DNA of 64,000 bases from Hymenobacter psychrophilus (lineage in GTDB: Bacteria > Bacteroidota > Bacteroidia > Cytophagales > Hymenobacteraceae), in NCBI RefSeq assembly GCF_900107135.1, contig NZ_FNOV01000010.1, forward strand, positions 124,001 through 188,000, written 5' to 3'. The notes beneath the pieces are model-generated. The model worked only from the letters and a program-made list of their open reading frames with translations, was not told the DNA's origin and did not search any database. Each line of letters starts with the position of its first letter. Positions within the stretch are counted from its first letter, which is position 1. This document shows, piece by piece, positions 29,244 to 60,420 of the stretch. The position numbers and the translations under genes are program-made.

Positions 29244-29273
29244 AGCGTTACCGGTAACGTTGCCGGTAACGCT
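29244..29273. promoter_or_regulatory. LacI-family tandem operator 1 (before PL6 gene)
   Basis: Thirty bases holding two overlapping palindromes, TTACCGGTAA and TTGCCGGTAA; the whole reads as a near palindrome. The same layout occurs at 40508-40537 and 60237-60266. Confidence 0.8.
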
Positions 29274-29420
29274 TTTTGCTTGCTTCGGGAATATCGTTCG
29301 CCCGCGGGGAAGGGCCAAAGTGCTTGATTATTGGTCTTTTAAAGGTCTACATTTGAAAAAGAGCCGCGCTGCCGATTATCCGCCAGAGCCCTTGTTTATC
29401 AACTGTCTACAGCCTTCAAC

Positions 29421-30818
29421 ATGCGGCCCTTTACGCGCTCATTCCTGACTGCCCTGCTGAGCTCAACCGGTCTGGCCGGCGCGCAGGCCGCCACCATCAA
29501 AGTTGCCGACCCAACCGCCTTTCAGGCGGCCGTGCCCAAGCTGCAGCCGGGCGACACGCTGGTGCTGGCCGCCGGTACCTGGCGCGATGCGCCGCTCGTG
29601 CTGCAGGGTCGCGGCACGGCCCAGCGGCCCATTGTGCTGCGGGCCGAACGGCCGGGCGCCGTGCAGCTGACCGGCCAGTCGAGCCTGCGGCTGAGCGGGG
29701 AGTACTTGGTGGTGTCGGGGTTGGATTTCCGGGAGGGCTACTCACCCAAAGGAGGCGTTATTGAGTTTCGCGACGGTGCCAAGGGCCTGGCCAACCATTG
29801 CCGGGTAACCGAGTGCGTAATTGCCGACTATAACCGCCCCGCCAGCGACAAGGACGACAAGTGGATCCACTTTTACGGCCAGCAAAACCGCTTCGACCAC
29901 AACTACGTGGCCGGCAAAACGACCGGGGGCGTAACCATGGTGATTGAGCTGCCCACGGCCGAAAGCCGCGACAACCAGCACCGCATCGACCACAACTACT
30001 TCGGGCCCCGGCCGCCGCTGGGGGCCAATGGGGGCGAAACCATCCGCATCGGCCTGGCCGAAACCTCGCTCACGAACTCGGGCACGGTGGTGGAGGAAAA
30101 CTACTTCTACCACTGCGACGGCGAGGCCGAAATTGTGTCCATCAAGTCGGGCCAGAATGTGGTGCGCCGCAACGTGTTCGAGGAATGCGCGGGCGCGGTG
30201 GTGCTGCGCCACGGCAACAACAACCTCATCGAGGGCAACTACTTCCTGGGCAACGGCCAGGAGCAGACCGGGGGCGTGCATGTGATTAACGCCGGGCACC
30301 AGGTGCGCGGCAACTACTTCGCCGACTTGCGGGGCAGTGGCTTCAAAGGGGCTCTGGTTATTATGTACGGGGTGCCCAACTCGCCCCTCAACCGCTACGC
30401 CGCCGTGCGCGACGTGCTCATCGAGAACAACACGTTCGTCAATTGCCGCCTCGTAGATCTGGCGGCCGGCAAGGACAAGGAGCGCACCCTGGCCCCGGCC
30501 GGCGTGCAGTTGCAAAACAACGTTTTCTACGGTCCCAAGCTGCCCGCGCCCTTTGCGGTTACGGCCGATATCAGCGGGCTGACGCTGGTCGGCAATCGGT
30601 ACCAGGCGGCCGGGGCCGGCCCCACCATTGCTGGTTTACAGGCGGCCAATATGATCAGCCAGAAATCAGCCGACGGGCTGCTGGTGCCCGCCGCCAAGGG
30701 CGCGCCGGTGCCGGCCCTGGTCCGGCCCGTAACGGCCGCCCAGGCCGGGCCGCGTTGGTTCCGGCCGGGCCCCGATGGTCTGGCGGCCCCGGCGGCCGGG
30801 GCTACGGGGGCGCGCTAA
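29421..30818 (+). CDS. PL6 family alginate lyase (single-domain)
   Basis: 465 residues. A signal peptide (MRPFTRSFLTALLSSTGLAGAQA) is followed by a right-handed beta-helix: DPTAFQAAVPKLQPGDTLVL, RFDHNYVAGKTTGGVT, NGGETIRIGL (calcium-binding region) and the catalytic pair K242 (IVSIKSGQNVVRRN) and R263 (VLRHGNNN), spaced 21 residues apart as in PL6 enzymes. PL6 enzymes cleave alginate (or chondroitin B) by beta-elimination. The alginate context makes alginate the likely substrate. It is first behind the promoter and operator, and the SusC gene follows after 187 bases. It would act in the periplasm or at the outer surface. Confidence 0.85.
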   Translation: MRPFTRSFLTALLSSTGLAGAQAATIKVADPTAFQAAVPKLQPGDTLVLAAGTWRDAPLVLQGRGTAQRPIVLRAERPGAVQLTGQSSLRLSGEYLVVSGLDFREGYSPKGGVIEFRDGAKGLANHCRVTECVIADYNRPASDKDDKWIHFYGQQNRFDHNYVAGKTTGGVTMVIELPTAESRDNQHRIDHNYFGPRPPLGANGGETIRIGLAETSLTNSGTVVEENYFYHCDGEAEIVSIKSGQNVVRRNVFEECAGAVVLRHGNNNLIEGNYFLGNGQEQTGGVHVINAGHQVRGNYFADLRGSGFKGALVIMYGVPNSPLNRYAAVRDVLIENNTFVNCRLVDLAAGKDKERTLAPAGVQLQNNVFYGPKLPAPFAVTADISGLTLVGNRYQAAGAGPTIAGLQAANMISQKSADGLLVPAAKGAPVPALVRPVTAAQAGPRWFRPGPDGLAAPAAGATGAR

Positions 30819-31005
30819 TTCCCCCGGTAAAGTCCGGCTGTTGGTGCTTGCTTCCATCCGCATAAACCCTGGCTTCCGCATCACCCACGAATACAACCGG
30901 CTTGCTGCCGCCGTAGCGCCCCCGCGCTGCCGGGGCACTGGCGGCTACTTGCGCCGCCTACCATCCTCGCTCTTTTCTTCCCACTTTTCAAAAATTCCCT
31001 CTTTG

Positions 31006-34000
31006 ATGATACGCTTACTTTCTTCGCCGCCCCGGCGCTGGCCCGTGGCCACCTCTGCGGTGCGGGCGCTCGTGCTGCTGCTGCTACTGGTATGCGGCCC
31101 GCTGGTAGTTCAGGCCCAGCAAGGCCTCACCGTATCGGGCACCGTGGTGGATGCGGCCGGCGAAACGCTGGTGGGCGCCACCGTGGTGGTGCAGGGCACG
31201 ACTATCGGCACCTCGACCAACAACGAAGGCTTTTACAGCCTGCAGGTGCCCGACGGGCAGGGTACGCTGGTGTTCTCCTTTATTGGCTACATGCCGCTGG
31301 AGCGCGCCATCAAGAACACGGCTTTGCTCAACGCCACGCTCAAGGCCAACCCCCAGAGCCTCGAAGAGGTGGTGGTAGTGGGCTACGGCGAGGTGAAGCG
31401 GGCCGATTTGACCGGCTCGGTGGGCTCGGTGAACATGGACGATCTGAACAAGGCTCCCGTCAAATCCTTCGACGATGCGCTGGCCGGGCGCGTGGCCGGC
31501 GTGCAGGTGACCTCGCCCGACGGGCAGCCGGGCGCCGCGCCCAACATCGTTATCCGGGGCGGCAACTCCATCACCCAGGACAACTCGCCGCTGTACGTGG
31601 TGGATGGCTTCCCGATTGAGAACTACAACAACAACGCCATCAACCCCTCGGATATCGAGTCGATTCAGATTCTGAAGGACGCCTCGTCGACGGCCATTTA
31701 CGGCTCGCGCGGGGCCAACGGCGTGGTGCTCATCACCACCAAGCGGGGTTCCGACGGCACGCCTACCATCACTTACGACACCTACTTCGGTTTGCAGGAA
31801 AGCCTGTCGCGGGCCAAGCTCATGAAGCCCTACGACTTCGTGAAGCTGCAGTTCGACTTCGACTCGGTGGCCGCCCGCCGCCTGTACCTGACCAACGGCC
31901 GCACCCTGGAAAGCTACCGCGACGAGGAGGGCATCGACTGGCAGAAGGAAATTCTGCGCCTGGCGCCCATGTGGAGCCACAACCTGGCCGTGCGCGGCGG
32001 CAGCAAGGGCACGCGCTACTCGCTTTCGGGCTCGGTGCTCAACCAGGACGGTACCATCATCAACTCGGGTTTCCGGCGCTACCAGGCCCGCGTGACGCTC
32101 GACCAGGACGTGCAGCAGAACCTGCGGGTGGGCCTGAACGCCAACTACAGCAACATTGCCACCACCGGCACGCCGGTTTCGGGCTCCTCCAACTCCGATT
32201 TCTCGCTGCTTACCAGCCTGTATGGCTACCGGCCCATCGTGGGCAACGGCAACCTGCGCCAGCTGCTCGATAACGCCGAGGACGAGGATGTAGTAGGGGC
32301 CAACAACTACCAGTGGAACCCGCTGTTCACGGTCAACAACGAGGTGCGCGACCGGACCACCAACCAGCTTACGGCCAACGGCTACGCCGAGTACAAGTTC
32401 ACCAAGTCGCTGAAGCTGCGCGTAACCGGGGGCGTCGACCGCCGGGTGCTGCGCTACGACGTGTTCAACAACTCCCAAACCCGCACCGGCAACCTCAACA
32501 ACCCCAACGGCCAGAACGGCGTGAACGGCTCGGTGACGTACACCGAGCAGAATAACCTAGTGAATGAAAACACGCTCACCTACACCAAGCAGATCCGGCG
32601 CGACCATCGCCTGAACGTGCTGGGTGGCTTCACGGTGCAGCGCAGCCGCTACTCGCAGTACGGCAACGGCGCCATTCTCATTCCCAACGAGCAGCTGGGC
32701 ATCAGTGGCCTCGACGAGGGCATTCCGTTTACGATTACGGCCGTGCGCTCGTCCAACACGCTGGCTTCGGCTTTGAGCCGCGTCAACTACACCTTCAAGG
32801 ACCGCTACCTGGCCACGGTGTCGTTCCGGGCCGATGGCTCGTCGAAGTTTGCGGACGGTAACAAGTGGAGCTACTTCCCGTCGGCCGCGCTGGCCTGGCA
32901 GCTCAACAAAGAGGCGTTTCTGAGCAACATCAAGGCTATTTCCGACGCCAAGCTGCGGGTGAGCTACGGCTTCATCGGCAATAACCGGGTCGATGACTTC
33001 GCCTACTTGCCCTCGCTGGGCCTGCCCGTGGGCGAGTCGTACTCGCCGGGCGGGGTGTTCATCCGGGCGGTGGTGCCGCTCACGCTCGGTAACCGCGACC
33101 TGCGCTGGGAAACCACCCAGGAGGCTGATCTGGGCTTCGACCTGGGCCTGTTCGAGCAGCGCGTGACGCTGACCGTGGATGCCTACCGCAAGAAAACCAC
33201 CGACCTGCTGCTCAACTCGCTGCTGCCGCCTACCAGCGGCTACACCTCGGCCTTCCAGAACATTGGGGCGGTGCAGAACCAGGGCCTGGAGCTGACGCTG
33301 GGCACGGTGAACGTGCAGAGCACGCGGTTCAACTGGTCGAGCAACTTCAACCTGGCCTTCAACCGCAACGAGGTGCTGGAGTTGACCCGCAACCAGGAGT
33401 TTATCCAGTCGTCGGTGCGCTGGCAGTCCTCTTCGGGCTACGGCAACGTGCCCGCCTACCTGGCCGAAATCGGCGCGCCGGTGGCCCGCTTCTACGGCTT
33501 CCAGTGGGCCGGCAACTACCAGATTGCTGATTTCGACGTGGTGAACGGCAACTACGTGCTCAAGGCCGATGTGCCCAACAACGGCAACGCCCGCACCAGC
33601 ATCCGCCCCGGCGACATCCGCTACGTGGATCTGAACGGCGACGGCCAGGTCGACAACAGTGACCGCACCATCATCGGCAACCCCAACCCCAAGTTCATCG
33701 GCGGCTTCAGCAACAACTTCGGCTTCAAGGGCTTCGATCTGAACGTGTTCCTGCAGTTCTCCTACGGCGGCGACCTGCTCAATGCCAACCGCATCCTGTT
33801 CGAGGGTGGGGCGCTGAAAAACGGCCTCAACCAGTTCGAGAGCTACGTGGACCGCTGGAGCCCCGAGAATCCGGACAGCAAGAACTTCCGCGTCGGCGGC
33901 CAGGGCCCGCGGGTGTACTCGACGCGCACCATCGAAGACGGCTCGTACCTGCGCCTGAAAACGGTGAACCTGGGCTACACCGTACCGGCCACCCTGACGA

Positions 34001-34182
34001 GCAAGGCCCACCTGAAAACGCTGCGCTTCTACGCCTCGGCCCAGAACCTGCTGACCTGGACCAAGTACTCGGGCAACGACCCGGAGGTGTCCATCTACAG
34101 CTCGCCGCTCACGCCGGGCTTCGATTTCTCGGCCTACCCCCGCGCCCGCACCTACACGCTGGGCCTGAACGTGTCGCTGTAG
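31006..34182 (+). CDS. susC: SusC/RagA TonB-dependent outer-membrane transporter
   Basis: 1058 residues. A signal segment ending LVVQAQQ, a carboxypeptidase-like domain (GLTVSGTVVDAAGETLVGATV), the SusC-specific TonB-box region (EVVVVGYGEVKRADLTGSVG), the plug (DDALAGRVAGVQVTSPDGQP, IYGSRGANGVVLITTKRG) and a large beta-barrel ending TYTLGLNVSL. It imports oligosaccharides across the outer membrane with its SusD partner downstream. The start MIRLLSSP at 31006 is chosen because the long frame upstream crosses the PL6 gene. Codon usage is the same as in neighbours. Confidence 0.9.
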   Translation: MIRLLSSPPRRWPVATSAVRALVLLLLLVCGPLVVQAQQGLTVSGTVVDAAGETLVGATVVVQGTTIGTSTNNEGFYSLQVPDGQGTLVFSFIGYMPLERAIKNTALLNATLKANPQSLEEVVVVGYGEVKRADLTGSVGSVNMDDLNKAPVKSFDDALAGRVAGVQVTSPDGQPGAAPNIVIRGGNSITQDNSPLYVVDGFPIENYNNNAINPSDIESIQILKDASSTAIYGSRGANGVVLITTKRGSDGTPTITYDTYFGLQESLSRAKLMKPYDFVKLQFDFDSVAARRLYLTNGRTLESYRDEEGIDWQKEILRLAPMWSHNLAVRGGSKGTRYSLSGSVLNQDGTIINSGFRRYQARVTLDQDVQQNLRVGLNANYSNIATTGTPVSGSSNSDFSLLTSLYGYRPIVGNGNLRQLLDNAEDEDVVGANNYQWNPLFTVNNEVRDRTTNQLTANGYAEYKFTKSLKLRVTGGVDRRVLRYDVFNNSQTRTGNLNNPNGQNGVNGSVTYTEQNNLVNENTLTYTKQIRRDHRLNVLGGFTVQRSRYSQYGNGAILIPNEQLGISGLDEGIPFTITAVRSSNTLASALSRVNYTFKDRYLATVSFRADGSSKFADGNKWSYFPSAALAWQLNKEAFLSNIKAISDAKLRVSYGFIGNNRVDDFAYLPSLGLPVGESYSPGGVFIRAVVPLTLGNRDLRWETTQEADLGFDLGLFEQRVTLTVDAYRKKTTDLLLNSLLPPTSGYTSAFQNIGAVQNQGLELTLGTVNVQSTRFNWSSNFNLAFNRNEVLELTRNQEFIQSSVRWQSSSGYGNVPAYLAEIGAPVARFYGFQWAGNYQIADFDVVNGNYVLKADVPNNGNARTSIRPGDIRYVDLNGDGQVDNSDRTIIGNPNPKFIGGFSNNFGFKGFDLNVFLQFSYGGDLLNANRILFEGGALKNGLNQFESYVDRWSPENPDSKNFRVGGQGPRVYSTRTIEDGSYLRLKTVNLGYTVPATLTSKAHLKTLRFYASAQNLLTWTKYSGNDPEVSIYSSPLTPGFDFSAYPRARTYTLGLNVSL

Positions 34183-34185
34183 TTT

Positions 34186-34316
34186 TAGCTGTTAGCTATT
34201 AGCTGGTGGCTGTTAGCTTTTTGACGCCCCATATCTTAAGTGGCCGTGCGTCTGGCAACGGTTACCGCATGTAAACCACCCGAGAGCTAACAGCTAGCAG
34301 CTACTAGCTAACAGCT
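34186..34316. repeat. Inverted repeat between susC and susD, pair 1
   Basis: Left arm TTAGCTGTTAGCTATTAGCT (34185-34218) pairs with the right arm ending AGCTAACAGCTGA (34285-34316). The units TAGCTGT recur in both arms. It occupies most of the 165-base gap between susC and susD, longer than the usual 10-30 bases. Confidence 0.75.
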
Positions 34317-34347
34317 GATTAAAAACCCTCTTCCCACCCGCCTTCTC

Positions 34348-35982
34348 ATGAGAAAGTCATTTATTACTTCTGCCCTCGGCCTCTCGCTGGCGCTGGCCGG
34401 CCTGAGCTCCTGCCAGGATTTTCTGGCCACCACGCCCGACGACTTTGTGGCCCCGCAGGGCTTCTACAACAACGAAAGCCAGCTGACGGCGGCCCTGATG
34501 GGCGTGTACGGCAAGCTGGGCCAGGAAATTACCTACACCGGCAGCACCGAGGAATCGACGTACTCGCGCTTTTTGTCGCTGGAAGCCCCGGCGGCCACCG
34601 ACGAGATGCTGGCCCGCAGCAACACGGCGCCCGCCGTGAGCCAGTACGGCTACGACGCGGCCCACGCCAATCTGGTCAACTGCTGGAGCAACCTGTACGA
34701 GGCCATCAACCGGGCCAACGTGCTGCTCGAAAACCTGGATAAGGCCAACACCTCCGACGTGGTAAAGGCCCAGATTCGGGCCGAGGCGCTGTTTTTGCGC
34801 GGCTACTACCACTTCGTGCTGGTGGGCTACTGGGGCGATGTGCCGCTGAAGCTGCAATCGACCACCGCCGCCAACAACGTGGACATTGCCCGCACGCCCG
34901 CCGCCGAGGTGTACGCCCAGGTTATCCGCGACATGACCGAGGCCGAGGGCGTGCTCAAGAACGGCACCGAGTGGGGCCACAGCGGGCGCATCTCGAAAAC
35001 GGCCGCCGCCGGCGTGCTGGCCCGCGTGAACCTGTACGCCGCCGGCCGCCTCAACGACCCCAGCAAGTACGCCGCCGCCCGCACCTGGGCCCTGAAAGTC
35101 ATCAATTCGGGCCAGCACGGCCTCAACCCCAACTACTCGCAGATCTTTAAAAACCACTCGGCCGATATCTACGAGTTGCGCGAGAGCATGTGGGAAGTGG
35201 AGTTCAACGGCAACGGCGTGGGCAGCATCTACAACGAGGGCGGGCGCTTCGCCTCCACGCTGGGCGTGCGCAACGACATCACCGAGCTGGGCTTCATGCA
35301 GGGCACCTACGTGGCCACCGGCGTGCAGTACGCCCTCTACGGCACCGGCGACTTGCGCCGCGACTGGAACATTGCCACCTACTACTACCCCAACTACGAC
35401 GCTACGCGCGGCGCCACGCCCTACGCCAGCACCTACACCTGGGGCCGCTACATCAATAAGTGGCGGCGCGAAGGCGAGGCCTTCAAGCCCTACGCCAAAA
35501 ACCTGAGCCCCACTAACTGGCCGCTGCTGCGCTACGCCGATGTGCTGCTCATGTTTGCCGAGGCCGACAGCCAGGTAAACGGCGGCCCCACCGCCGCCGG
35601 CCTCGACGCCCTCAACCAGGTGCGCCGCCGCGGCTACGGCCTGCCCGTCGGCACCGCCGCCCCCACCGTGGATGTGCCCACCGGCCAGAGCCAGAGCGCG
35701 TTCTTCACCCGCATCAAGGACGAGCGGGGCCGGGAGCTGGCCTTCGAGGGCTGGCGCAAGCTGGACTTGCTTCGCTGGAACATCTTTTTGCCCACGCTCA
35801 AGGGCATGATTCCGATTATCAGCACCCAGGCCCCGTCGAGCAGCAATAACGCCTTGGGCTACAACGGCCGCAACTCGTCGCTGGTGCCCTACCAGAACGC
35901 CTCGGAGCGCGACCTGCTCTGGCCCATCCCGGCCAACGAGCTGGCCCTCAACAAGCTCATGACCCAGAACCCCGGCTGGTAG
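34348..35982 (+). CDS. susD: SusD/RagB outer-membrane lipoprotein
   Basis: 544 residues. The lipobox ends at C22 (LAGLSSCQDFL), followed by a SusD-like N-terminal domain (FYNNESQLTAALMGVYGKLG), tetratricopeptide-like helices (FLRGYYHFVLVGYWGDVPL) and a C-terminal RagB/SusD segment (IKDERGRELAFEGWRKLDLLRW) ending in ALNKLMTQNPGW. It binds the glycan at the cell surface and passes it to SusC. It follows susC in the same direction, but with a larger gap and an inverted repeat. Confidence 0.9.
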   Translation: MRKSFITSALGLSLALAGLSSCQDFLATTPDDFVAPQGFYNNESQLTAALMGVYGKLGQEITYTGSTEESTYSRFLSLEAPAATDEMLARSNTAPAVSQYGYDAAHANLVNCWSNLYEAINRANVLLENLDKANTSDVVKAQIRAEALFLRGYYHFVLVGYWGDVPLKLQSTTAANNVDIARTPAAEVYAQVIRDMTEAEGVLKNGTEWGHSGRISKTAAAGVLARVNLYAAGRLNDPSKYAAARTWALKVINSGQHGLNPNYSQIFKNHSADIYELRESMWEVEFNGNGVGSIYNEGGRFASTLGVRNDITELGFMQGTYVATGVQYALYGTGDLRRDWNIATYYYPNYDATRGATPYASTYTWGRYINKWRREGEAFKPYAKNLSPTNWPLLRYADVLLMFAEADSQVNGGPTAAGLDALNQVRRRGYGLPVGTAAPTVDVPTGQSQSAFFTRIKDERGRELAFEGWRKLDLLRWNIFLPTLKGMIPIISTQAPSSSNNALGYNGRNSSLVPYQNASERDLLWPIPANELALNKLMTQNPGW

Positions 35983-36013
35983 CCGGCAGACGGCAACTCT
36001 TTTCGCTTTCCAG

Positions 36014-36910
36014 ATGAAATCATTCTTCTTCCTGACCGGCACCCTGCTGGGGCTGGCTACCGCGGTGTGTGCCCAGCAGACCCCGCCGCCCCCGCCGCCC
36101 ATCCCCACCGACTCGACGGTGAAGGTGGTGACCACGCCCCCCGGCTTTACTACCGAGCTGAACGCGGTGTACACCAAAGTTGGCCCCTGGGACGGGCGCA
36201 TGGATCTGTATTTGAACAAGGCCAGCCGCAAGCCCGTGCCGGTGATTGTGAACCTGCACGGCGGGGGCTGGAACAAGGGCACCAAGGAGTCGCAGTCGGG
36301 TTTCAGCAGCTTTTTCAAGCAGGGCTGGAGCGTGGCCAACGTGGAGTACCGCCTCTCGCCCTACGCCCCGGCCCCGGCCGCCATCGAGGACGTGCGCTGC
36401 GCCCTGATTTACCTGGTCAACAACGCCAAGCAGCTCAACATCGACCCCAAAAAGATTGTGGTGCTGGGCACGTCCTCGGGCGGCCACCTGGCCCTGATGG
36501 CGGGGCTGCTCGAAAACGACCCCAAGTTTGACGCCCAGTGCAAGGCCCCCGAGCCGCTGAAAATCCGGGCCATTATTGACAAGTACGGCATTGCCGACGT
36601 GGCCCAGTGGAAAACCAAAACGGCCACCCAGTGGCTGGGCCCCAAGGCCCGCGACGCGGAGTTCGTGCAGTCGGTTTCGCCGATGAGCTACGTGAAGAAA
36701 ACCAGCCCGCCCACCTTCATCATCCACGGCGACGCCGACTCGACGGTGCCCTACGCCCAGTCGGTGGCCCTGTTCAAAAGCCTGAAAGCGGCCAAAGTGA
36801 ACACCGAGATGCTGACCATTGAAGGCGGCGAGCACGGCAAGTTTTCCAAGGAAGACAACAAGCGCGTGAGCGAGGCCATCATCGGCTTTCTGCAGGCCCA
36901 GGGCCTGTAA
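36014..36910 (+). CDS. Alpha/beta hydrolase (esterase), secreted
   Basis: 298 residues. A signal peptide (MKSFFFLTGTLLGLATAVCA) and a proline-rich spacer are followed by an esterase fold: the oxyanion-hole motif VNLHGGGW, nucleophile Ser in GTSSGGHLALM, an acidic residue in FIIHGDADSTVP and a His in EGGEHGKF. It may remove acetyl or other esters from the polysaccharide; the substrate is not shown. Its place 31 bases after susD in the alginate locus makes alginate O-acetyl esters a reasonable guess. Confidence 0.75.
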   Translation: MKSFFFLTGTLLGLATAVCAQQTPPPPPPIPTDSTVKVVTTPPGFTTELNAVYTKVGPWDGRMDLYLNKASRKPVPVIVNLHGGGWNKGTKESQSGFSSFFKQGWSVANVEYRLSPYAPAPAAIEDVRCALIYLVNNAKQLNIDPKKIVVLGTSSGGHLALMAGLLENDPKFDAQCKAPEPLKIRAIIDKYGIADVAQWKTKTATQWLGPKARDAEFVQSVSPMSYVKKTSPPTFIIHGDADSTVPYAQSVALFKSLKAAKVNTEMLTIEGGEHGKFSKEDNKRVSEAIIGFLQAQGL

Positions 36911-36933
36911 ACGGCGGGCTTACGCAGAATGGC

Positions 36934-37021
36934 TGTAGCGCGAAGCGCCAGCTTCGCGGGTCGTTGCTGACGGCCAAACGACGTCGTTCGACAATGCGCG
37001 AAGCTGGCGCTTCGCGCTACA
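36934..37021. repeat. Palindromic intergenic repeat, family G (short copy)
   Basis: TGTAGCGCGAAGCGCCAGCT at 36934-36953 is complementary to the right arm ending CGCGCTACA at 37021. It lies between the esterase and T9SS genes. Related to copies at 6470 and 47811. Confidence 0.75.
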
Positions 37022-37106
37022 GGCTCCCGGTTTCCTCCTGGGAAGTTCTGTACCCCACCAACAAGTACCAAACGCCATTTTTCACCCAACCCTTTACCCA
37101 ACAACT

Positions 37107-38207: not shown

Positions 38208-38352
38208 GCGGGAAGTCGTGTGCCTGCAACATCCTGCCGCGGCAGTTGAAACGGTAGCCCGGCTCGACTGCTTCGGCAGGATGTTCGGCTTTCAAGGCGG
38301 CCCCGCGGCTTCGCGCGGCTTTCGCCGCCCATTGTTCTTTTACCCGCTGATT

Positions 38353-39402: not shown

Positions 39403-39492
39403 CCCCGCAGCTGCCCGCTTTCTGGCCGGCTGGTTTTGGCCAGCTGTTTCCTGATGCTATTTCCATCTTCTTCGTTAAAAACACAGTAAATC

Positions 39493-40537: not shown

Positions 40538-40824
40538 ATTTTATAAAAATAAGCATAATGCATACCATTAATAGTCTATTTTATAGGTTTTTGTCATCAA
40601 TGCTTTTACCTTGCATTGTATAAAGTGAGTAATTAATCACTCTGTATATATAGGATAATAACAAGGTGAGTTCGTGCCTTGCTGGTGCCGGAATATTATG
40701 CCGGCTCAATCCCGCTCCCAGCCACGGAGCAGGTGCTGGCCTTTCTCCTCGCCTTTGCCCGCCGACTGCTTACTCCTATCAACAGCCCGCTTTCTCCTCT
40801 GCTTCCCACCAAATCCTGTTTCCT

Positions 40825-44010: not shown

Positions 44011-44040
44011 CGAATCCCACCTTCTCCAGCCTCAATTCCC

Positions 44041-45849: not shown

Positions 45850-45930
45850 AGGGCCTTTCGCACCTCTTTTGGCTGTGGGCACTACTGCTCGCAGCCGGCC
45901 CTTACCCTTCACCTGTCGCACGCCATTCTG

Positions 45931-46938: not shown

Positions 46939-46956
46939 GGGCAGAACGGGGCTAGT

Positions 46957-47091: not shown

Positions 47092-47119
47092 TTCTAGCTT
47101 ATATTCCTTCCTTCCCCCT

Positions 47120-47794: not shown

Positions 47795-47810
47795 CACGAA
47801 CGGCAGAACA

Positions 47811-47859
47811 GCAGTAGCGCGAAGCTGGAGCTTCGTTGTTCTTTGGTTCGCGCTACTGC
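47811..47859. repeat. Palindromic intergenic repeat, family G (short copy)
   Basis: GCAGTAGCGC at 47811-47820 is complementary to GCGCTACTGC at 47850-47859, with a second small stem (GAAGCT / AGCTTC) inside. It follows the aldolase gene. Confidence 0.65.
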
Positions 47860-48019
47860 CCTCGCAACCCTTTTCCAAACAGGCCCAAATCAAACAAGCA
47901 TCAAACGCTTTGCGGCGGCACCAGCAACAACCAACGAGCTTCCGGGGACGGGTGGGAATACGTCTGGGGGAAGCTTGGGGAGTTGCGGGGCCGCCGCGTT
48001 ATTTTCAACCAACCCCTCC

Positions 48020-51819: not shown

Positions 51820-51832
51820 CGGGATGGTTGGG

Positions 51833-52828: not shown

Positions 52829-54160
52829 TTATGAGGGCTGCTGCCGCAGCGGTAGCCGCCGGATGGTGCCGCTGAGCAGCAGCACGGCGGCGGCGCCCAG
52901 GGGCACGAGCAGAGCCGCCATAATGAAGAATGGCGTGTAGCTCTCCCGGGTGAGCACCGGCACCAGCCAGGTGGTGATTAGGGTGCCGAACACGGCGCTA
53001 GTGCCGCTCAGGCCGGCCAGCGCGCCCACCGATTTGCCGGAGAAGAAGTCGCTGGGCAGGGTCTGGATGTTGCCAATAGCAATCTGGAAGCCCAGAAGCG
53101 CCACGAAAATAGTGCCCATGGCCATGGTGGCCGTGGTGGCCCAGGCGCTCAGCAGCAGTGCCGGCAGCATAATCACGCAGCCCAGCACGATGCAGATTTT
53201 GCGGGCCCGGTTCACGGTGGCGCCACCGGTTATCAGGCGGCCCGAGAGCAGGCCGCCGCCCAAGCTGCCGATGGCCGCGCCCACGTAGGGCACCCAGGCA
53301 AACGCGCCAATCTGCTTGATGTCGAACTGAAACCGCTCGTGCAAGTAAATGGGCAGCCAGCTCACGAACAGCCACCAGATGGGGTCGAGCATAAACCGCG
53401 ACAGCAGCACGGCCCACGACTGCCGGTAGCGCAGCAGTTCCCGGATGGATAGGGCCACGTCGGGGGCAGCATCGGTTTCGGGTGTGGCCTGGCCCTCCAG
53501 GATGTATTTCCGCTCGTGCTCACTCAGCCAGGGGTGGTACTTGGGCACGGCCTTATTGATAATCAACCACGGAATGACCCACAGCAAACCCAGCCCGCCA
53601 ATGAGCACGAACGTAGTGCGCCAGCCCACCGCTCCGTAGAGGTAGGCAATCAGCGGGGCCGAAATAACGGCGCCCAGTGAAGCCCCGGCATTGAACAAGC
53701 CCTGGGCAAAAGCGCGCTCCTTAATTGGAAACCACTCGGCGTTCGATTTGGCGGCCCCCGGCCAGTTGCCGGCCTCGCCCAGCCCGAGCAGCGCCCGGAA
53801 CAGGGCAAACGAGAGCAGCCCCCGCGACAGCGCGTGCAACCCCGCCGCCACCGACCACACCACGATGGAAATCGTGAAGCCGATGCGTGTGCCCACCTTA
53901 TCGAACATCCGTCCCGACAGGCTCTGGCTCAGTCCGTAGGCCACCATGAAGAACGTGACGACCAGCGCGTACTGCTCCTTGCCCATGTTCAGGTCTTCGG
54001 CCACGCCGGGCCACATCACGGCCAGCGCGTTGCGGTCGATGTAGTTGATAACCGTGGCCAAGCCAATAAGACCGATAATCCACCAGCGCAGCCCGCTAAC
54101 GGGGCGCGTGGCCGGCGGCGGGCTGGCAGGCGGCGGCGGAATTTGCGTAGAAGGCTGCAT
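52829..54160 (-). CDS. MFS transporter, hexuronate (ExuT) type
   Basis: 443 residues with twelve predicted membrane helices. GLATVINYIDRNALAVMWP, MVAYGLSQSLSGRMFDKVGT and LFRALLGLGEAGNWPGAAKS are typical of the anion/cation symporter group (ExuT, GudP), whose members import hexuronates and related sugar acids. In an alginate locus it is the likely inner-membrane importer of monomeric uronate. The C-terminal half is complete. It lies downstream of the PL17 gene in the same direction, separated by a palindromic repeat. Confidence 0.85.
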   Translation of the reverse strand: MQPSTQIPPPPASPPPATRPVSGLRWWIIGLIGLATVINYIDRNALAVMWPGVAEDLNMGKEQYALVVTFFMVAYGLSQSLSGRMFDKVGTRIGFTISIVVWSVAAGLHALSRGLLSFALFRALLGLGEAGNWPGAAKSNAEWFPIKERAFAQGLFNAGASLGAVISAPLIAYLYGAVGWRTTFVLIGGLGLLWVIPWLIINKAVPKYHPWLSEHERKYILEGQATPETDAAPDVALSIRELLRYRQSWAVLLSRFMLDPIWWLFVSWLPIYLHERFQFDIKQIGAFAWVPYVGAAIGSLGGGLLSGRLITGGATVNRARKICIVLGCVIMLPALLLSAWATTATMAMGTIFVALLGFQIAIGNIQTLPSDFFSGKSVGALAGLSGTSAVFGTLITTWLVPVLTRESYTPFFIMAALLVPLGAAAVLLLSGTIRRLPLRQQPS

Positions 54161-54220
54161 GAGCGGGGGGATTAAACGGGCGGGAAGAACGGGAGAAAGA
54201 GCGGTTTTGAAACGCAGAAC

Positions 54221-54367
54221 GTCATGCTGAGCGTAGCCGGAGGCGGAGTCGAAGCATCTCTACCGCAGTAGTAATTCTGTCGGCTGAATTAGCGTGACAA
54301 CGAAAGATTAGCGTGGCGACGAAGCAGTAGAGATGCTTCGACTACGCTCCGCTTCGCTCAGCATGAC
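54221..54367. repeat. Palindromic intergenic repeat, family R (copy 3)
   Basis: Starts GTCATGCTGAGCGTAGCCGG and ends TTCGCTCAGCATGAC. It sits between the PL17 and MFS genes. Confidence 0.85.
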
Positions 54368-54372
54368 GATTA

Positions 54373-56592
54373 CTACTCCGGCAAATGCCGGAGCTGGTAG
54401 GGGCCCTGCCAGCGTAGGGTCTGGCCGGCGTAGGCGGCCTCGTGGGCGGTGGTGGCGGCGGCGTCCTGGTTGGCAATGGCCAGCTGGTAGCGCCCGCCCC
54501 GCACCAGGCGCACCTCCACCACAGTGGCGTCGGGGCTGTTGAAGAGGACCGTGACGGCGGCCACGTTGGAGCGCGAACCCACCGACGTTTCGGCAATGGG
54601 GTTGAACTCGCCGTGTGCTTCGATAACGGAGGCGAATACGCCCGTCTGCAACTGGCGGCGCACCAGCAGGGCCGGTTCGGGCCGCAGGTTGAAGTTGGGG
54701 TCGTTGGCCCCGATGCGGGCCAGCACGAGGCGGGTGGCCGAATCGGTGGCGGTGGTCAGGGAGTAGAACTGGGGGCCATCGAGCCAGGTGAGCGTGGCGC
54801 TGCCGGCCCCGGGCTGGCTGGTGGCTTCCTGCCAGAGGTGCTGGTAACCGTTGCGCTTGCCCACAGGCCGCTGCTCGGCGGCGGCGCGCTGGTAGCGGAA
54901 GCTAGTTGAAATCAGCTGCCCTTGGTAGTAAAACGGCAGATCGAACTGGTGGCTGGCCGGGGCGGCTACCCGCATGACATCGAACACCAGCGGCTTGCCC
55001 GAGGTGCTGTCCTGCACCAGCACCACCGTGCGCTGGAGCTGCACACCGGGGTAGGCGTCGTTGGCTTTGGCACTTACTACCTGGGCATTGGGCTTGCTCA
55101 AATCAGAAAACCACGCTTGGCCAGCGTGCTTTTCGGCCTCGCTTTCCTTGCCGCCAAAGTGCGATGTTTCGTCCATCACGATGGTGTTGTGGGCCACGGT
55201 CTGGGAGGCGAAGGACTTGGTTTCGGGCAGGTAGCGGCCGCCTTCCTTGGCTTCCACGTTCAGGAACCGGGCTGCGCCGTAATCGGGCAGCACCTCGCGG
55301 CCCTGGTCGTAAAGCACGAGGCCGAGCTTGTCGTAATGGCCGTGGGAGAGGCCGTGGGCGGTGTATTTGAACAGCAGGCTGGTTTGGGCAGCCAGCGGGC
55401 CGGTGCGCAACACGGCCAGCCCGCCCTCGGTGCCCTCGGCCCCGTCGCGGTAGAGCAGGCTGCGGCGGGCGTAGGGGGGCAGGGTGGGGCCGGCCTGCTG
55501 CATAGCTTTGGCCAGCAGCAGGCCGCCGGGGCTTACCAATACCTGTCGCTGCTGGCGCACCAAAGCCAGCAGAGTATTGTCGGGGCCGTAGCGCTGGGCG
55601 GCAATGCTGAGGGCGGCCACCAGCTCGCGGGTGGTCCAGTCCTTTTCCTTGAGCGCATCATTGAGCGGGTAAAAGCGGCCGTCAGTGTTGGTGAGCTGCA
55701 GCGTCGCGTCGAGGGCCTTGCGCAGGATTTGGTCGCGGTACTCGAAGATGCGCAGCTCGGGCTGGTTGTTCTCAATGGCCTGGGCAAACAGGTAAAACGG
55801 CGACAACGCGTAGCGGGCGTAATAGGGGCCTTCGGTGTAGTAGCCATCGGGCGAAAAAAGCTGGCTTAGCTGCGCGAGGAAGCCACTTTTTCCGTCGTTT
55901 TGGGTTCCCCGCAGGGCCATGTTCACCAGCTTCTGGTCGTGCAAGGCGTAGCCGGTGAGGCCGACGGCCGTGGCGGCCCACACGCCGTGGTTGTGAATCA
56001 GGTTGAACCAGCTTTTCAGGTCCTGGGTGAAGAAGCGAGTCATGGGCCGGAAGGCGCCGTCCTCAATCTGGCGCCGCTCCCTGGGGCTCAGGAAGTCGTG
56101 CACCGCGTCGTAGCCCTGAATGCTGTACACCACCCAGTTGCAGTCGTTGAGGGCCTGGTGAAACAGGCGGCCCGGCGAGGAGCTTTTGGCTTCGGGGTGG
56201 TTTTTGAGGGTCGGAATCAGCTTGCTGTAGGCCAGCAGCATGTCGCGCACGAAGCGGGCATACTTGGGGTCCTGGGAAATGGTGTAGGCCACGCCGGCCG
56301 CCTGCAGGGCGTAGTAGTTGCGGGTGTGGATTTCGTGGGTGTAGCCCCCGGCCGGGTCCTTGGGTACGGGCACCGTAATGGGCTGGGCCAGGACCGCATC
56401 TGCGCGGGCGCGCAGGGCGGCGTAGCTTTCCGTCAGCAGCGGATACTGGCCGGGGTCGGCCAGCGCCTGGCGCAGCGGCGGGGCCTCGGCGGCCGTCAGG
56501 AGCAGCACGGGGTGCTGCGGGCCAGCCGCCCAGACCTGGCCGGTAGCCAGCACGCTCAAAATCAGTATCCACAGAAAACGCAGCACGGGCAT
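54373..56592 (-). CDS. PL17 oligo-alginate lyase
   Basis: 739 residues with a signal peptide (MPVLRFLWILILSVLATGQV with cleavage after WA), an alpha/alpha toroid and a C-terminal beta-sandwich. N201 and H202 in NLIHNHGVWA, Y258 in EGPYYARYAL and H413 in TAHGLSHGHYDK fall at the same numbers as the catalytic residues of the well studied PL17 enzyme Alg17c, as I recall them. PL17 enzymes release the unsaturated monouronate from oligo-alginates, completing depolymerisation. It likely acts in the periplasm. It is in a run with the SDR and the long PL6 gene. Confidence 0.9.
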   Translation of the reverse strand: MPVLRFLWILILSVLATGQVWAAGPQHPVLLLTAAEAPPLRQALADPGQYPLLTESYAALRARADAVLAQPITVPVPKDPAGGYTHEIHTRNYYALQAAGVAYTISQDPKYARFVRDMLLAYSKLIPTLKNHPEAKSSSPGRLFHQALNDCNWVVYSIQGYDAVHDFLSPRERRQIEDGAFRPMTRFFTQDLKSWFNLIHNHGVWAATAVGLTGYALHDQKLVNMALRGTQNDGKSGFLAQLSQLFSPDGYYTEGPYYARYALSPFYLFAQAIENNQPELRIFEYRDQILRKALDATLQLTNTDGRFYPLNDALKEKDWTTRELVAALSIAAQRYGPDNTLLALVRQQRQVLVSPGGLLLAKAMQQAGPTLPPYARRSLLYRDGAEGTEGGLAVLRTGPLAAQTSLLFKYTAHGLSHGHYDKLGLVLYDQGREVLPDYGAARFLNVEAKEGGRYLPETKSFASQTVAHNTIVMDETSHFGGKESEAEKHAGQAWFSDLSKPNAQVVSAKANDAYPGVQLQRTVVLVQDSTSGKPLVFDVMRVAAPASHQFDLPFYYQGQLISTSFRYQRAAAEQRPVGKRNGYQHLWQEATSQPGAGSATLTWLDGPQFYSLTTATDSATRLVLARIGANDPNFNLRPEPALLVRRQLQTGVFASVIEAHGEFNPIAETSVGSRSNVAAVTVLFNSPDATVVEVRLVRGGRYQLAIANQDAAATTAHEAAYAGQTLRWQGPYQLRHLPE

Positions 56593-56630
56593 GGGGATTT
56601 GGGTGGGGTGGGGGATTGTTCTGGCGTGTT

Positions 56631-56737
56631 ACCCCACCCCCCCGGCCCCCTCCCCTCCGGGAGAGGGGGTGCCAGACGCAAGTTCTGTTAGAACGCACCC
56701 CCTCTCCCGGAGGGGAGGGGGCCGGGGGGGTGGGGTG
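56631..56737. repeat. C/G-rich palindromic repeat, family P (copy 3)
   Basis: ACCCCACCCCCCCGGCCCCC (56631-) pairs with the arm ending GGGGGTGGGGT at 56736, around a GGGAGAGGGGG / CCCCCTCTCCC pair. It lies between the SDR and PL17 genes and overlaps neither. Confidence 0.8.
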
Positions 56738-56741
56738 ACGC

Positions 56742-57500
56742 TTACACGAAGTAAGTGCCGCCGTTGATTTCCATCGAAGTGCCCGTGATGAACGAGGAGG
56801 CATCGGACGCCAGGTAGAGCACCAGATCGGCAATTTCGTGGGCCTGGCCTTCGCGGCGCAACGGGGTGCCGCCGGCTACTTTCTCGCGTACTTCGGGCTT
56901 GGTGAAGGTGTCGTGGAAGGCCGTGGCAATCATGCCCGGCGATACGGCGTTTACGCGGATGCCTTTGGGGCCGAGCTCTTTGGCCAAGCCGCGGGTCATG
57001 GTGAGCACGCCGCCCTTGCCGGTGGCGTAGGCCAGGGCGCCGGGTCCGCCACCGTCGCGGGCCGCCTGGGATGCGAAGTTGACGATAGACGCGCCCGATT
57101 CCATGTGGGGCAAAGCGGCCTGCGTGACCAGGAACGTGGTTTTCAGGTTGACCCCAATCACGAAATCCCAGAAATTCTCGTCCATTTCCTCCATCGTTTT
57201 GCGGCCTACCAGGCCACCCACCACATTCACCAGAATGTCGATGCGCGGGCCGAACGCTTCGGTGCAGGTGCCAATTACCTGCTTCACGTCGGCGGCCTTG
57301 GTCATGTCGCCCTGGGCCTGCACGGCTTTGGGGCTGCCCTGCTCGCGGAGCAGGCGCATGGTTTCGTCGGCGTCGGCATCAGAGTCAAAATAGTTGAAGC
57401 ATACGCTGGCGCCAGCTTTGGCGAGCAGCAGCGTTACCTGGCGGCCGATGTCGCGGGCTCCGCCCGTTACGAGGGCAACTTTTCCGGTGAGGTCGTACAT
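56742..57500 (-). CDS. SDR family oxidoreductase, likely DEH reductase
   Basis: 252 residues: KVALVTGGARDIGRQVTLLL (TGxxxGxG nucleotide-binding motif), ILVNVVGGLVGRK, the active-site Ser in SIVNFASQAARDGGGPG and YATGK (Y-x-x-x-K), and GIRVNAVSPGMIATAF. The start MYDLTGKVALVTG at 57500 is chosen. In alginate catabolism an SDR reduces DEH to 2-keto-3-deoxygluconate (KDG). That substrate is inferred from its position between the PL17 and PL6 genes, with the kinase and aldolase elsewhere in the locus. No other candidate reductase is present. Confidence 0.85.
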   Translation of the reverse strand: MYDLTGKVALVTGGARDIGRQVTLLLAKAGASVCFNYFDSDADADETMRLLREQGSPKAVQAQGDMTKAADVKQVIGTCTEAFGPRIDILVNVVGGLVGRKTMEEMDENFWDFVIGVNLKTTFLVTQAALPHMESGASIVNFASQAARDGGGPGALAYATGKGGVLTMTRGLAKELGPKGIRVNAVSPGMIATAFHDTFTKPEVREKVAGGTPLRREGQAHEIADLVLYLASDASSFITGTSMEINGGTYFV

Positions 57501-57580
57501 AAGGGTGTAAAAAAAGAAAAAAGGGAAAGATTGGTGTGTTGAAAGGGGAGAGGTTGGGGTAGCAGGGAAGCTGAAAAGGA

Positions 57581-57740
57581 GCATCGTGCTGAGCGCAGGC
57601 GTAGCCGCAGTCGAAGAGCATCTCTACCGCCGCAGTAATCCGGTCGGCTGGCTCCCCCTCTCCCTGAGGAGAGGGGGCCGGGGGGTGAGGTTACCGTTGC
57701 AACGTCAGCACGCGAGATGCTTCGCTGCGCTCTGCATGAC
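57581..57740. repeat. Degenerate family R repeat with nested family P repeat
   Basis: Starts GCATCGTGCTGAGCG and ends TCTGCATGAC, a degenerate R element. The centre (57651-57692) holds a CCCCCTCTCCCTGAGGAGAG family P segment, replacing the usual R loop. Confidence 0.65.
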
Positions 57741-57754
57741 GTGCTGTTAGCAAC

Positions 57755-60112
57755 CTACTGCGCCGGTTCCGAGCCGTAGTAGCCTAACGGCTTACCATCA
57801 GTAGCAGCAGGCAAAGCGGGGGCGGGGTTGCGGAGGCGGTAGTCGAGCTGGGCGGGGGCCACGAACTCCACGGGCACCTGCGTGACCTGCTGCTGCTGAA
57901 TCGGATAGAACGAATCGAGGCGGCCGGCCTGGGAGAAGTTGGTGTTGCGCACCCAGTTGATGGTCCAGCCGTAGTCTTCGTACTGAATGGCCCGGCCGGC
58001 CCGGCCGCTGTTGTGGAACAGGCTGTTGCGCACATCCGACCACTGCACGCCATCGACCTTGAGCACGTGGCCCAGCTCCATGTTGGCCACATTATCGAAG
58101 GTGCAATGATCCACCCACAGGAAGGGGCCGGTGGTGCTTTCGTCGTTGCCGCCGCGGTACAGGTCGAGGGCGCCGGCCAGCACGTTGCGGAACAGGCAGT
58201 TGCGCAGCTCCACGAACTCAGCGTTGTAGATGCCCTTGTCGTCCTTTTCGGCGGCCAGGCTCAGCACGTCGCCGGTAATGTCGGTGAAAATGGTGTTGCT
58301 GAAGCGCACCGTGTCGGCGTAGGAGCCGGGCGTGGCCTTGAAGGCGCTCTTGCGGCCCTCAGTCAGGTTCTGAAACTGGCAGTTATCCACCCACAGGTTA
58401 TAATGCTGGAGCATGGGCTTAGCGCTGGTGCGGATAAAGCAGTCGGCCATTTCGGTGGGTGAGGTGCCGTCGAAGGTCAGGCCGCCCAGGCGCAGCGAGC
58501 CCCCGTTTTCAATCGTGAAGAAGGCAAACCCGTTGCGGCTGCCGGCAAAGGCTACCAGCGGGCGGGCCGCCAGGCCCGGCTTGGCGCGCACCGTCAGGGG
58601 CACACTTACGGCAATCGGGTTCTGCACCGGGTAGGTCCCAGGGCCTAGTTCGATTACGTCGTAGGCCTGGGCCTGCCGGCAGATGCGTTGCAGCGCATCG
58701 GGCTCATTTGCCGGCACGGCCCAGACTTTCCCCACGCGGATGGATTCGGTAGCGGGCCGGAACCAGGCCGGGCCGGCCTGGGCCGCCGTAACGGGGCGCG
58801 TCAGGCGGGCCTTTTCGCGGCCCATCACGGGCACGGCCAGCCCGTCGGGCGAGGTGGCCAGGCTCAGGCCGGCAGTCAGGGGCAAGCCGGCAATGCCGGA
58901 GTTGGTGCCCACCTGCACCCGGTTGTTTTTGAAGCTCAGGCCGCTGATATCGTCGTGCACCCGGAATAGGGTATCGACCTGCGGGCTATAGAAGGTGTTG
59001 TTGACGAAGCGCACGTTTTCGGGGCGGGCGGTGCGCTCCAGGTCGCGGCCGGCGGCCAGCTCCACGTCGGCGCAGTTCACGAACGTGTTGTTCTCAATCA
59101 GTACGTCGCGCACCGGGTGGTAGCGGTTGATGGACGAGTTGGGCACGCCGTTCATCACCGTCAGGGCCGCCCGGAACCGGTCGCCGCGCAAATCGGCGAA
59201 GTAGTTGCCGCTCACCCGGTGGCCGGCGTTAATCACGCGCACGCCACCGGTCTGGGGCTTGTTGTTGCCCAGGAAGAAGTTGCCCTCTACCACGTTGCGG
59301 TTGCCGTGGCGCAGCACCACCGAGCCCTCGCTTTCCTCGAACACGTTGCGCCGAACTACATTATCGCCCGACTTAATGGACACGATTTCCACCTCCCCGC
59401 TACAGCGGTAAAAGTAGTTTTCCTCAATAGTGGTGTGCGAAGACGTGAGCGAGTAAGTCGAAACGCCAACGCGCATGGTTTCGCCCCCGTTGGAGCCCAG
59501 GCGCGGGCGCGGCCCGAAGTAGTTGTGGTCGATGCGGTGGTAGTTGTTCTGGTGCTCGGGCCCGCTCAAATCCACGACCAGCGTCACGCCGGCGTTCATC
59601 TTGCCGCCCAAATAGTTGTGGTCGAAGCGGTTGCGCTGGCCGAAGAGCTGCACCCACATATCTTCCTTGAAGCGTTCGGCCTGGTTGTAGCCGTCGATGG
59701 CGCAGTTGGTGACGCGCGAATCGGTGGCCGGGGCGCCGCCGGTTTCGCGGAACTCAATCACGGCCCGGCCAGGCGTGGAACCCTGCTCAAACAAGAGCCC
59801 CGATACCAGCAGAAACTTGCCCGACAGTTGCAGCATGGAGCGGCCTCGCAAATGCACCGTGCCCGGGCGCTCGGCCCGCAGCACAATGTTCTGGCGGGCC
59901 GTGCCGGTGCCCTTAAACACGAGCTGGGCATCGGTCCAGATGCCGGCGGCCAGCACCAGCGTGTCGCCGGGGCGCAGGCCGGGCACGGCGGCCTTGAACG
60001 CGGCCGGGTCGGCCACTTTAGTGGTCGTGGCCCGAGCGGCGGGAACTAAAGCCCCGGTTAGCAGCAAGGTGCTGGCTGCAATTAGCCAGGTATGTATCTT
60101 ATTTTTATTCAA
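57755..60112 (-). CDS. PL6 family alginate lyase (two-domain)
   Basis: 785 residues. A signal peptide (LIAASTLLLTGALVPAARA) and two beta-helix domains. The first holds RFDHNYLGGKMNAG, NGGETMRVGV and the catalytic pair K247 (IVSIKSGDNVVRRN) and R268 (VLRHGNRN), 21 residues apart. The second (about residues 480-785) also looks like a parallel beta-helix (FAFFTIENGGSLRLGGLTFD, DVRNSLFHNSG). Length fits two-domain PL6 alginate lyases. It is divergent from the LacI-type regulator gene, with the third operator between them. Confidence 0.9.
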   Translation of the reverse strand: MNKNKIHTWLIAASTLLLTGALVPAARATTTKVADPAAFKAAVPGLRPGDTLVLAAGIWTDAQLVFKGTGTARQNIVLRAERPGTVHLRGRSMLQLSGKFLLVSGLLFEQGSTPGRAVIEFRETGGAPATDSRVTNCAIDGYNQAERFKEDMWVQLFGQRNRFDHNYLGGKMNAGVTLVVDLSGPEHQNNYHRIDHNYFGPRPRLGSNGGETMRVGVSTYSLTSSHTTIEENYFYRCSGEVEIVSIKSGDNVVRRNVFEESEGSVVLRHGNRNVVEGNFFLGNNKPQTGGVRVINAGHRVSGNYFADLRGDRFRAALTVMNGVPNSSINRYHPVRDVLIENNTFVNCADVELAAGRDLERTARPENVRFVNNTFYSPQVDTLFRVHDDISGLSFKNNRVQVGTNSGIAGLPLTAGLSLATSPDGLAVPVMGREKARLTRPVTAAQAGPAWFRPATESIRVGKVWAVPANEPDALQRICRQAQAYDVIELGPGTYPVQNPIAVSVPLTVRAKPGLAARPLVAFAGSRNGFAFFTIENGGSLRLGGLTFDGTSPTEMADCFIRTSAKPMLQHYNLWVDNCQFQNLTEGRKSAFKATPGSYADTVRFSNTIFTDITGDVLSLAAEKDDKGIYNAEFVELRNCLFRNVLAGALDLYRGGNDESTTGPFLWVDHCTFDNVANMELGHVLKVDGVQWSDVRNSLFHNSGRAGRAIQYEDYGWTINWVRNTNFSQAGRLDSFYPIQQQQVTQVPVEFVAPAQLDYRLRNPAPALPAATDGKPLGYYGSEPAQ

Positions 60113-60420
60113 TTTTTATAGCTTGCCAGAAGGTGAATGAGTGCTCACTTTCTATTCGACAAGGTATAGGGAAGAGGGCAGAAAATCAACTTATTTCAGC
60201 TCGTAAGATGGTTTAACCGGACTGAAATTGTCCGAAAACGCTACCGTTAACGTTACCGGTAACGTTTTCATAACGCTTGCATATTTCTGAAAAAAATGAA
60301 ATATTGCCATTGGGTTCCGGTTATTTTTTTGCCGCCGGCCCGACCAATACCCGCCATCGGCGCCGCGGCCCCCAACCGTTCGGCCGACCTCGTTCTTTCT
60401 GTTCCCCAATTCCCACCCGC
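60113..60420. other. Divergent regulatory region
   Basis: About 310 bases between the long PL6 gene and the LacI gene, holding operator 3 (60237-60266). No clear pair of promoter boxes was found on either strand; a TATTTCTG at 60282-60289 is one mismatch from TAnnTTTG. Confidence 0.5.
60237..60266. promoter_or_regulatory. LacI-family tandem operator 3 (PL6 / lacI divergent region)
   Basis: Thirty bases with a degenerate TACCGTTAACG half and a TTACCGGTAACG palindrome. Same layout as operators 1 and 2. Both flanking genes could be controlled, including the regulator itself. Confidence 0.75.

Follow-up and report, generated by a model that had tools for sequence, protein, structure and literature searches.

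In a 64,000-nucleotide stretch of the Hymenobacter psychrophilus genome (contig NZ_FNOV01000010.1, positions 124,001 to 188,000; the window below), three 30-bp elements built on the same double palindrome stand ahead of genes for alginate use. We propose, with a probability of roughly 0.84 and from comparison of sequences, that these elements are the operators of the LacI-family regulator P0001 (349 aa), encoded at 60421..61470 on the + strand, which would hold three alginate operons and its own gene low until an inducer appears. In the uninduced state the regulator would bind each element near a promoter and repress the PL6a-susCD-...-PL7, susCD-kinase-aldolase-FBPase and PL6b-SDR-PL17-MFS operons as well as lacI itself, and release would be brought about by an alginate breakdown product, probably an unsaturated uronate or a ketodeoxy-sugar. 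The operator would be a ladder of CpG steps at 6-bp intervals carrying ANCGNT-core dyads every 12 bp; since the dyads recur every 12 bp, neighbours overlap and share the hexamer between them, which is RCCGGY in the LacI clade called clade A below. The binding of P0001 to the elements, repression rather than activation, the inducer, the AACGTT register of the dyads, and co-transcription are all points that we infer.

Three tandem elements and the regulator that accompanies them

Direct reading confirmed the three double elements that the earlier note had placed at 29244, 40508, and 60237; no strand is assigned to any of them. Element 1 (29244-29273; AGCGTTACCGGTAACGTTGCCGGTAACGCT), ahead of PL6a, consists of two 18-bp units that overlap at an offset of 12 bp, with the ANCGNT-type boxes AGCGTT, AACGTT, and AACGCT and the hexamers ACCGGT and GCCGGT. 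Element 2 (40508-40537; AACGTTACCGGTATCGTTACCGGTAACGTT), ahead of SusC2, has boxes AACGTT, ATCGTT, and AACGTT, with ACCGGT as both hexamers. Element 3 (60237-60266; AACGCTACCGTTAACGTTACCGGTAACGTT) lies between the divergent PL6b and lacI genes; its boxes are AACGCT, AACGTT, and AACGTT, its hexamers ACCGTT and ACCGGT, and it contains a perfect 18-mer at 60249-60266.

Taken by itself, the 10-bp core TTACCGGTAA exceeds chance in the window only modestly (20 matches with at most two mismatches against 13.2 expected, 4 of 100 shuffles being as high). The 26-bp double motif, with up to three mismatches, occurs at three places in the whole genome (4,758,215 bp, 45 contigs), namely elements 1-3, and the reversed-pattern control at none, so that the double motif is not spread over unrelated genes. 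The 18-bp unit at the same tolerance gives seven places genome-wide and three in the control, the seven being the six units of elements 1-3 and one three-mismatch place on contig C36. A looser 18-bp pattern, ANCGNTRCCGGYANCGNT with one mismatch, proved useless for a regulon search, with 25 forward matches in the genome against 26 for the control.

We compared 120 genomes of the genus, including that of the window, and 204 of the family. A LacI match at E <= 1e-60 is found in 115 of the 120, and an ortholog of P0001, at 76-81% identity, in 4 of the other 119 (G006, G009, G045, and G099), the next best match standing at 52%. PL17 (E <= 1e-100) is present in 5/120 genomes, exactly those that have the LacI ortholog, and all five carry the element; in the family set no further genome passes E <= 1e-115 (5/204). 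Together the five genomes hold ten tandem elements (3+2+1+2+2) and five single-unit operators with arms, described below; G006 and element 3 each show a worn second unit. Between these genomes the 26-bp stretch has an identity of 0.91, against 0.35 and 0.38 in its flanks. Thus, the double pattern is present in the orthologous loci rather than absent from them.

The same association is seen in a scan of named genomes, confined to the best 80 of 281 relatives, of which 39 loci were taken as clade A and 41 other LacI loci served as controls. The 16-bp core CCGGYAACGYTRCCGG, matched at 14/16 or better, lies upstream of lacI in 39/39 clade-A loci, and PL6 and/or PL17 homologs are found in 34/39 of them against 0/41 of the more distant LacI loci, whose 826 kb contain 19 scattered core matches of 14-15. 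The claim that the elements mark an alginate regulon is therefore supported by their pairing with both a LacI clade and alginate genes. The assignment to groups A to D preceded the tree and used identity rank and genus. A branch with support 100/97 separates clade A from the rest, and group B too is one side of a branch, while C and D are not; the tree includes 11 of the 25 group-D proteins, and L065 and L066 were not placed in it. Near-duplicates occur among the clade-A loci, which give 38 distinct arrays in 40 rows including the window. Five loci from the order but not the family, with identities of 56-73%, are divided: L062-L064 have the array and PL6 (of these, L063 and L064 seem to come from the strains of L088 and L089 or from close ones), and L065 and L066 have neither.

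Several observations weigh against this reading. L065 (59%) and L066 (56%), the order-level LacI relatives nearest clade A among the representatives tried, lack the array (best core 12/16), and the 1.5 kb examined has genes for SusC and none for PL. Five of the 39 clade-A loci (L100, L103, L108, L115, and L134) show no PL6 or PL17 in the DNA examined. The double-motif search of the 120 genomes found ten with matches, five with the ortholog and five without, each of the latter having one two-mismatch match, and there was one control match (G068); four of these five matches lie outside open reading frames of at least 100 aa, where they look like operators of related LacI proteins, and one lies inside. 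Similar sites with ATCGAT boxes occur elsewhere in G006 and G045, for example between the Mqo and asparaginase genes. Finally, TAnnTTTG, the consensus of the Bacteroidota -7 box, stands within 60 bp of 8/46 elements against a null mean of 7.8 and is thus not enriched.

The sites elsewhere deserve a description of their own. In G006 (L178:5107-5124; G006:C4:71107), ATCGTTACCGGTAACGAT lies between divergent malate:quinone oxidoreductase and asparaginase genes, and three more ATCG-box sites (L175:4258, L175:7448, and L176:9614; G006:C24, 109-135 kb) lie close to genes for secreted proteins, no more than 90 kb from the alginate locus. The tandem ladder ATCGAT GCCGGT AACGAT GCCGGC ATCGAT ahead of a beta-helix protein gene in G045 (L177:5227-5256; G045:C33:95227) is probably the operator of another LacI paralog. 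In genomes without the ortholog, ladder-like sites outside open reading frames of at least 100 aa are found at L012:1480-1545 (G100; three CCGG units), L007 (G037), L010 (G070), and L004 (G005); these are likely operators of related LacI proteins, and cross-talk is therefore possible. In L024-L047, from many Hymenobacter genomes, a 34-bp palindrome, CTATCGGNAACGTTTNCGNAAACGTTNCCGATAG, stands upstream of a LacI paralog of about 50% identity; it has the 12-bp box pair too and would mark a further regulon.

The distribution of the alginate locus is patchy, with the lacI ortholog and PL17 in 5/120 genomes of the genus, and its nearest kin outside the genus are in the Spirosomataceae, which suggests transfer or repeated loss.

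Anatomy of the array and possible mode of binding

The aligned clade-A arrays read CCGRNAACGTTRCCGGYAACGYTRCCGG, with a CpG every 6 bp and a unit every 12 bp. Counted over 450 bp upstream of lacI, pairs of ANCGNT boxes at a distance of 12 bp occur in 32/39 loci of clade A, 5/16 of group B, 17/24 of C, and 23/25 of D (null 0.1-0.3); in group B, TACGTT variants break the box pattern, and spacings of 18, 6, and 24 are seen more often. Pairs of CCGG 12 bp apart are found in 38/39 clade-A loci against 0/65 in the other three groups. An alignment seeded on CpG spacing gives the same picture, that is, a constant box and a hexamer that is RCCGGY, TGCGGA, TCCGCA, or TTCGAA according to clade. L160 belongs to no group in the spacing tallies, in this alignment, and in the half-site test below, and the latter two leave L036 and L048 out of group D. 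In the 38 distinct arrays, which span several families, the copies have diverged from one another and have kept the CpG spacing and the key bases, and the overlapping pair of dyads, of the LacI-family class spaced by about 13 bp, is kept between orthologs.

Where the dyads are centred can be approached through the LacI-family half-site rule, GNTNNC. In four LacI clades the rule fits 0.71-0.98 of the half-sites of box-centred dyads and 0-0.50 of those of hexamer-centred dyads; because C6 follows from the CpG ladder, this mainly tests the T at position 3. In the five armed single-unit sites both boxes fit in 5/5 and the hexamer in 2/5. Dyads centred on AACGTT are favoured because ANCGNT boxes recur across clades and the intervening hexamer is clade-specific, often asymmetric. 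The serious competitor, which we consider the less probable of the two, is a register centred on ACCGGT, in which the canonical operator is an 18-bp AACGTTACCGGTAACGTT and each Hymenobacter element would comprise two of them with a 6-bp overlap, bound one at a time. In its favour are the five single-unit sites, whose symmetry about CCGG extends over 30 bp and one of which lies within a 58-bp perfect palindrome, and the E. coli GntR sites before gntK, which share the GTTACC half-site and are centred between CC and GA with no CpG box between them. Moreover, PMC4052901 gives the even 18-bp palindrome with a central CG as the usual LacI-family operator, and the elements contain 18-bp units of this form in either register. 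On balance we lean toward AACGTT, and a dyad centred on ACCGGT, as the earlier note's reading implied, appears less likely given the half-site fit and the constancy of the box against the variable hexamer. A recognition-helix code was also tried for the register and set aside, since ISIS-TVSR-like helices are common to many members of clade A and group C, whose hexamers differ.

The second copy in each element might also be a functionless leftover of 12-bp slippage. Relatives do have single-unit operators at five places, and wear of the second unit has been noted above; even so, we hold this improbable, given that the copies, diverged as they are from one another, keep CpG spacing and key bases in 38 distinct arrays over several families, that both units lie within the conserved stretch (0.91 vs 0.35-0.38), and that paralog clades retain the 12-bp box pair. 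It is very improbable, in turn, that another protein, for example another LacI paralog, binds the elements and that the neighbouring lacI merely travels along. The genus does contain paralogous LacI proteins with similar ladders upstream, and the genome of the window itself has two LacI matches at E <= 1e-60, one of them besides P0001; against this, operator, PL17, and LacI ortholog share one presence pattern over the 120 genomes, and RCCGGY goes with clade A, as the CCGG tallies indicate.

P0001 has the two parts expected of a LacI-family protein, the N-terminal LacI helix-turn-helix (PF00356, 7.8e-14, residues 16-61) and a periplasmic-binding-protein-like sensor domain (PF13377, Peripla_BP_3, 1.3e-40, residues 182-344). 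Its alignment to Lac repressor covers residues 2-329 of 360 in the latter, and the P0001 chain stops 5 residues beyond. In Lac repressor the C-terminal end is the tetramerisation helix. Since P0001 has no counterpart of this end, and hence no such helix, it is unlikely, as far as its sequence indicates, to form a LacI-type tetramer. The earlier note had offered a tetramer or two dimers for the tandem arrangement, and of these two dimers may be possible, on overlapping dyads that share recognition bases. In known structures, two dimers 12 bp apart would compete because they use the same hexamer. Overlapping LacI-family sites about 13 bp apart were reported upstream of 110 operons by Ravcheev et al. 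2014 (PMC4052901), and that paper describes tetramer binding as hard to square with structures for this class, and two dimers as likewise competing in known structures.

The simplest working model is that one dimer at a time occupies alternative registers, with a higher local occupancy. The bolder model, assembly on a shared half-site, gains some favour from the fact that both units have been maintained and that their spacing is kept across clades; fixed spacing alone proves little, because the units overlap. One could go further and suggest, as a tentative and rather doubtful generalization, that a LacI subfamily of Bacteroidota polysaccharide loci uses obligately overlapping operators, with two to three ANCGNT dyads exactly 12 bp apart sharing one recognition hexamer, read by a non-canonical assembly such as two dimers that share or split the middle half-site.

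Genes of the locus and promoter context

Operon 1 begins on the + strand with PL6a, a PL6-family lyase gene (29421..30818; Pfam Chondroitinas_B, 1e-111), and continues over 30775..40317 with SusC1, SusD1, a BD-FAE esterase, a secretion-tail protein, a beta-helix protein, and, as its last gene, PL7 (39493-40317, +); its co-transcription would follow from gene order and strand. Operon 2 (40666..49018, +), in which start codons were set mechanically, encodes SusC2, SusD2, a PfkB-family sugar kinase that is a candidate KdgK, KDPG aldolase (Eda), and FBPase. Operon 3 (52829..60112, - strand) runs from PL6b (57755-60112, -) through SDR (56742-57584, -) and PL17 (54373-56592, -) to MFS (52829-54160, -), with intergenic gaps of 170, 149, and 212 bp. 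With PL6, PL7, and PL17 lyases, SusC/SusD pairs, and genes for the conversion of DEH to KDPG, this is an alginate locus; the roles of the reductase and the kinase are suggested by gene context, and the best NCBIfam model for PL17 is oligoalginate lyase, below its cut-off (744.7 vs 1400 bits).

No copy of the element was seen upstream of SDR, PL17, or MFS, as the earlier note had remarked; none is needed if transcription from element 3 covers these genes, which come after PL6b on its strand. Four relatives have the corresponding genes downstream of the element in a single direction, together with SusC1, SusD1, and the esterase. Between 52600 and 60450, terminator-like sites number 7 against 7.5 in shuffles, which gives no information on operon ends, and a sigma-70 scan found 1 site against 1.3.

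The FBPase gene (47843-49018; Pfam FBPase, 1e-68) is the last of the susC2-kinase-aldolase operon; H. artigasi (L083) has a homolog at 76% in the same position. Such a position is what would be expected if gluconeogenesis is needed for growth on alginate.

The sequence TAATTTTG, a candidate Bacteroidota -7 box, lies at 29230-29237 (+), 6 bp before element 1, and again at 40472-40479 (+), 28 bp before element 2; TANNTTTG occurs 6 times over both strands of the 64-kb window, and no TAnnTTTG was seen near element 3 within the stretch searched. Since elements 1 and 2 follow these boxes, a bound repressor would cover the start or the early transcribed region. The earlier suggestion of promoter overlap accordingly holds for elements 1 and 2; a rule extrapolated from these two, placing a TAnnTTTG box at a fixed position near arrays in general, was dropped, given the count among the 46 elements.

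These positions also bear on whether the regulator could be an activator, or dual, rather than a simple repressor. In favour of this, some LacI-family proteins do activate, 28 bp separate element 2 from its box, and no box is visible near element 3; on the other side, elements 1 and 2 are downstream of candidate -7 boxes, where a bound protein hinders, and local LacI-family regulators are mostly described as repressors. We regard an activating or dual role as quite improbable and retain repression by P0001.

Regulon beyond the locus and relation to known systems

The perfect 18-mer occurs at 6 places in the 120 genomes, with 0 for the control: four at lacI/PL6b, one before susC2 of G009, and one elsewhere in G006, on a separate contig, ahead of the sole PL7 gene of this genome, which Pfam identifies as Alginate_lyase2. 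The five ortholog-bearing genomes have four PL7/PL6-family genes above Pfam cut-offs on other contigs, and an operator with 0-1 mismatches stands upstream of 4/4; none was found upstream of a fifth lyase gene, below the Pfam cut-off (G000:C18). These operators are single units with arms, CAAGAN-AACGTTNCCGGNAACGTT-NTCTTG. The armed 30-bp form, searched with three mismatches allowed, occurs at five places in the 120 genomes, all with 0 mismatches (control 0), and precedes PL7 (2), PL6-family (2), and susC2 (1) genes by 110-415 bp to the first ATG. On this evidence the regulon appears to extend, in relatives, to lyase genes on other contigs.

The armed operator of G009 (L054:14259) lies inside a 58-bp perfect palindrome that is flanked by A/T runs on both sides and is hairpin-like. 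Its interpretation as a mere terminator was dropped once the same 30-bp form had been found before lyase genes.

Overlapping LacI operators and local LacI regulons are already known. By sequence, the nearest solved structures to P0001 are CcpA (2.5e-51) and PurR (1.4e-46), and their operator cores, of the AANCGNTT and AAACGTTT kind, resemble the ANCGNT box. Unlike them, P0001 falls below curated cut-offs and would govern a local regulon through tandem overlapping dyads. It is in fact below every listed NCBIfam equivalog cut-off for named LacI regulators (GntR, CcpA, PurR, CytR, and RbsR), the best score being 217.9 bits for CytR (cut-off 436); CcpA gives 200 vs 442, PurR 199 vs 501, and GntR 89.9 vs 433. 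The operators of E. coli gntKU, bound by the LacI-family GntR, are like the elements in having the GTTACC half-site and, in MG1655, dyad centres 13 bp apart (TGTTACCGATAACAGTTACCCGTAACAT). The elements differ from them in their 12-bp spacing, in the CpG step each 6 bp, and in having an ANCGNT box where GntR has AACAGTT; the pathway (alginate) and the phylum (Bacteroidota) differ as well, and P0001, as its score indicates, is not GntR. AusR of Zobellia galactanivorans is, like P0001, a regulator of a Bacteroidota alginate locus, and it binds single, double, or triple operator copies, as cited in PMC7874173. AusR is of the GntR superfamily, in contrast to the LacI and Peripla_BP_3 domains of P0001, which has no GntR domain by Pfam at E <= 0.001 and thus lacks the GntR-type helix-turn-helix. 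The same paper counts LacI regulators as 8/29 alginate-locus regulators in 32 polar genomes (PMC7874173), and LacI regulators of uronate use in Bacteroides, including UxmR for mannuronate, are listed in PMC3878776. In the open-licence PMC literature on LacI regulons, alginate, SusC operators, overlapping operators, and AusR, we found no description of the motif.

What results for Hymenobacter, Dyadobacter, and Chitinophagaceae is a named regulator, a motif, and a list of genes for the use of alginate, and the motif has already picked out lyase genes elsewhere in the genomes of relatives. LacI sites that overlap at 12-13 bp pose a puzzle already on record (PMC4052901), in that known structures leave no room for two dimers. 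The spacing is kept over several LacI clades, and the question can therefore be addressed with the natural one-, two-, and three-unit operators of a single clade. If a subfamily with obligate overlap does exist, it would give the GntR puzzle a large, naturally replicated test set, in which the alginate clade would be the clearest regulon, with two forms of operator, the tandem array and the CAAGA-armed single unit.

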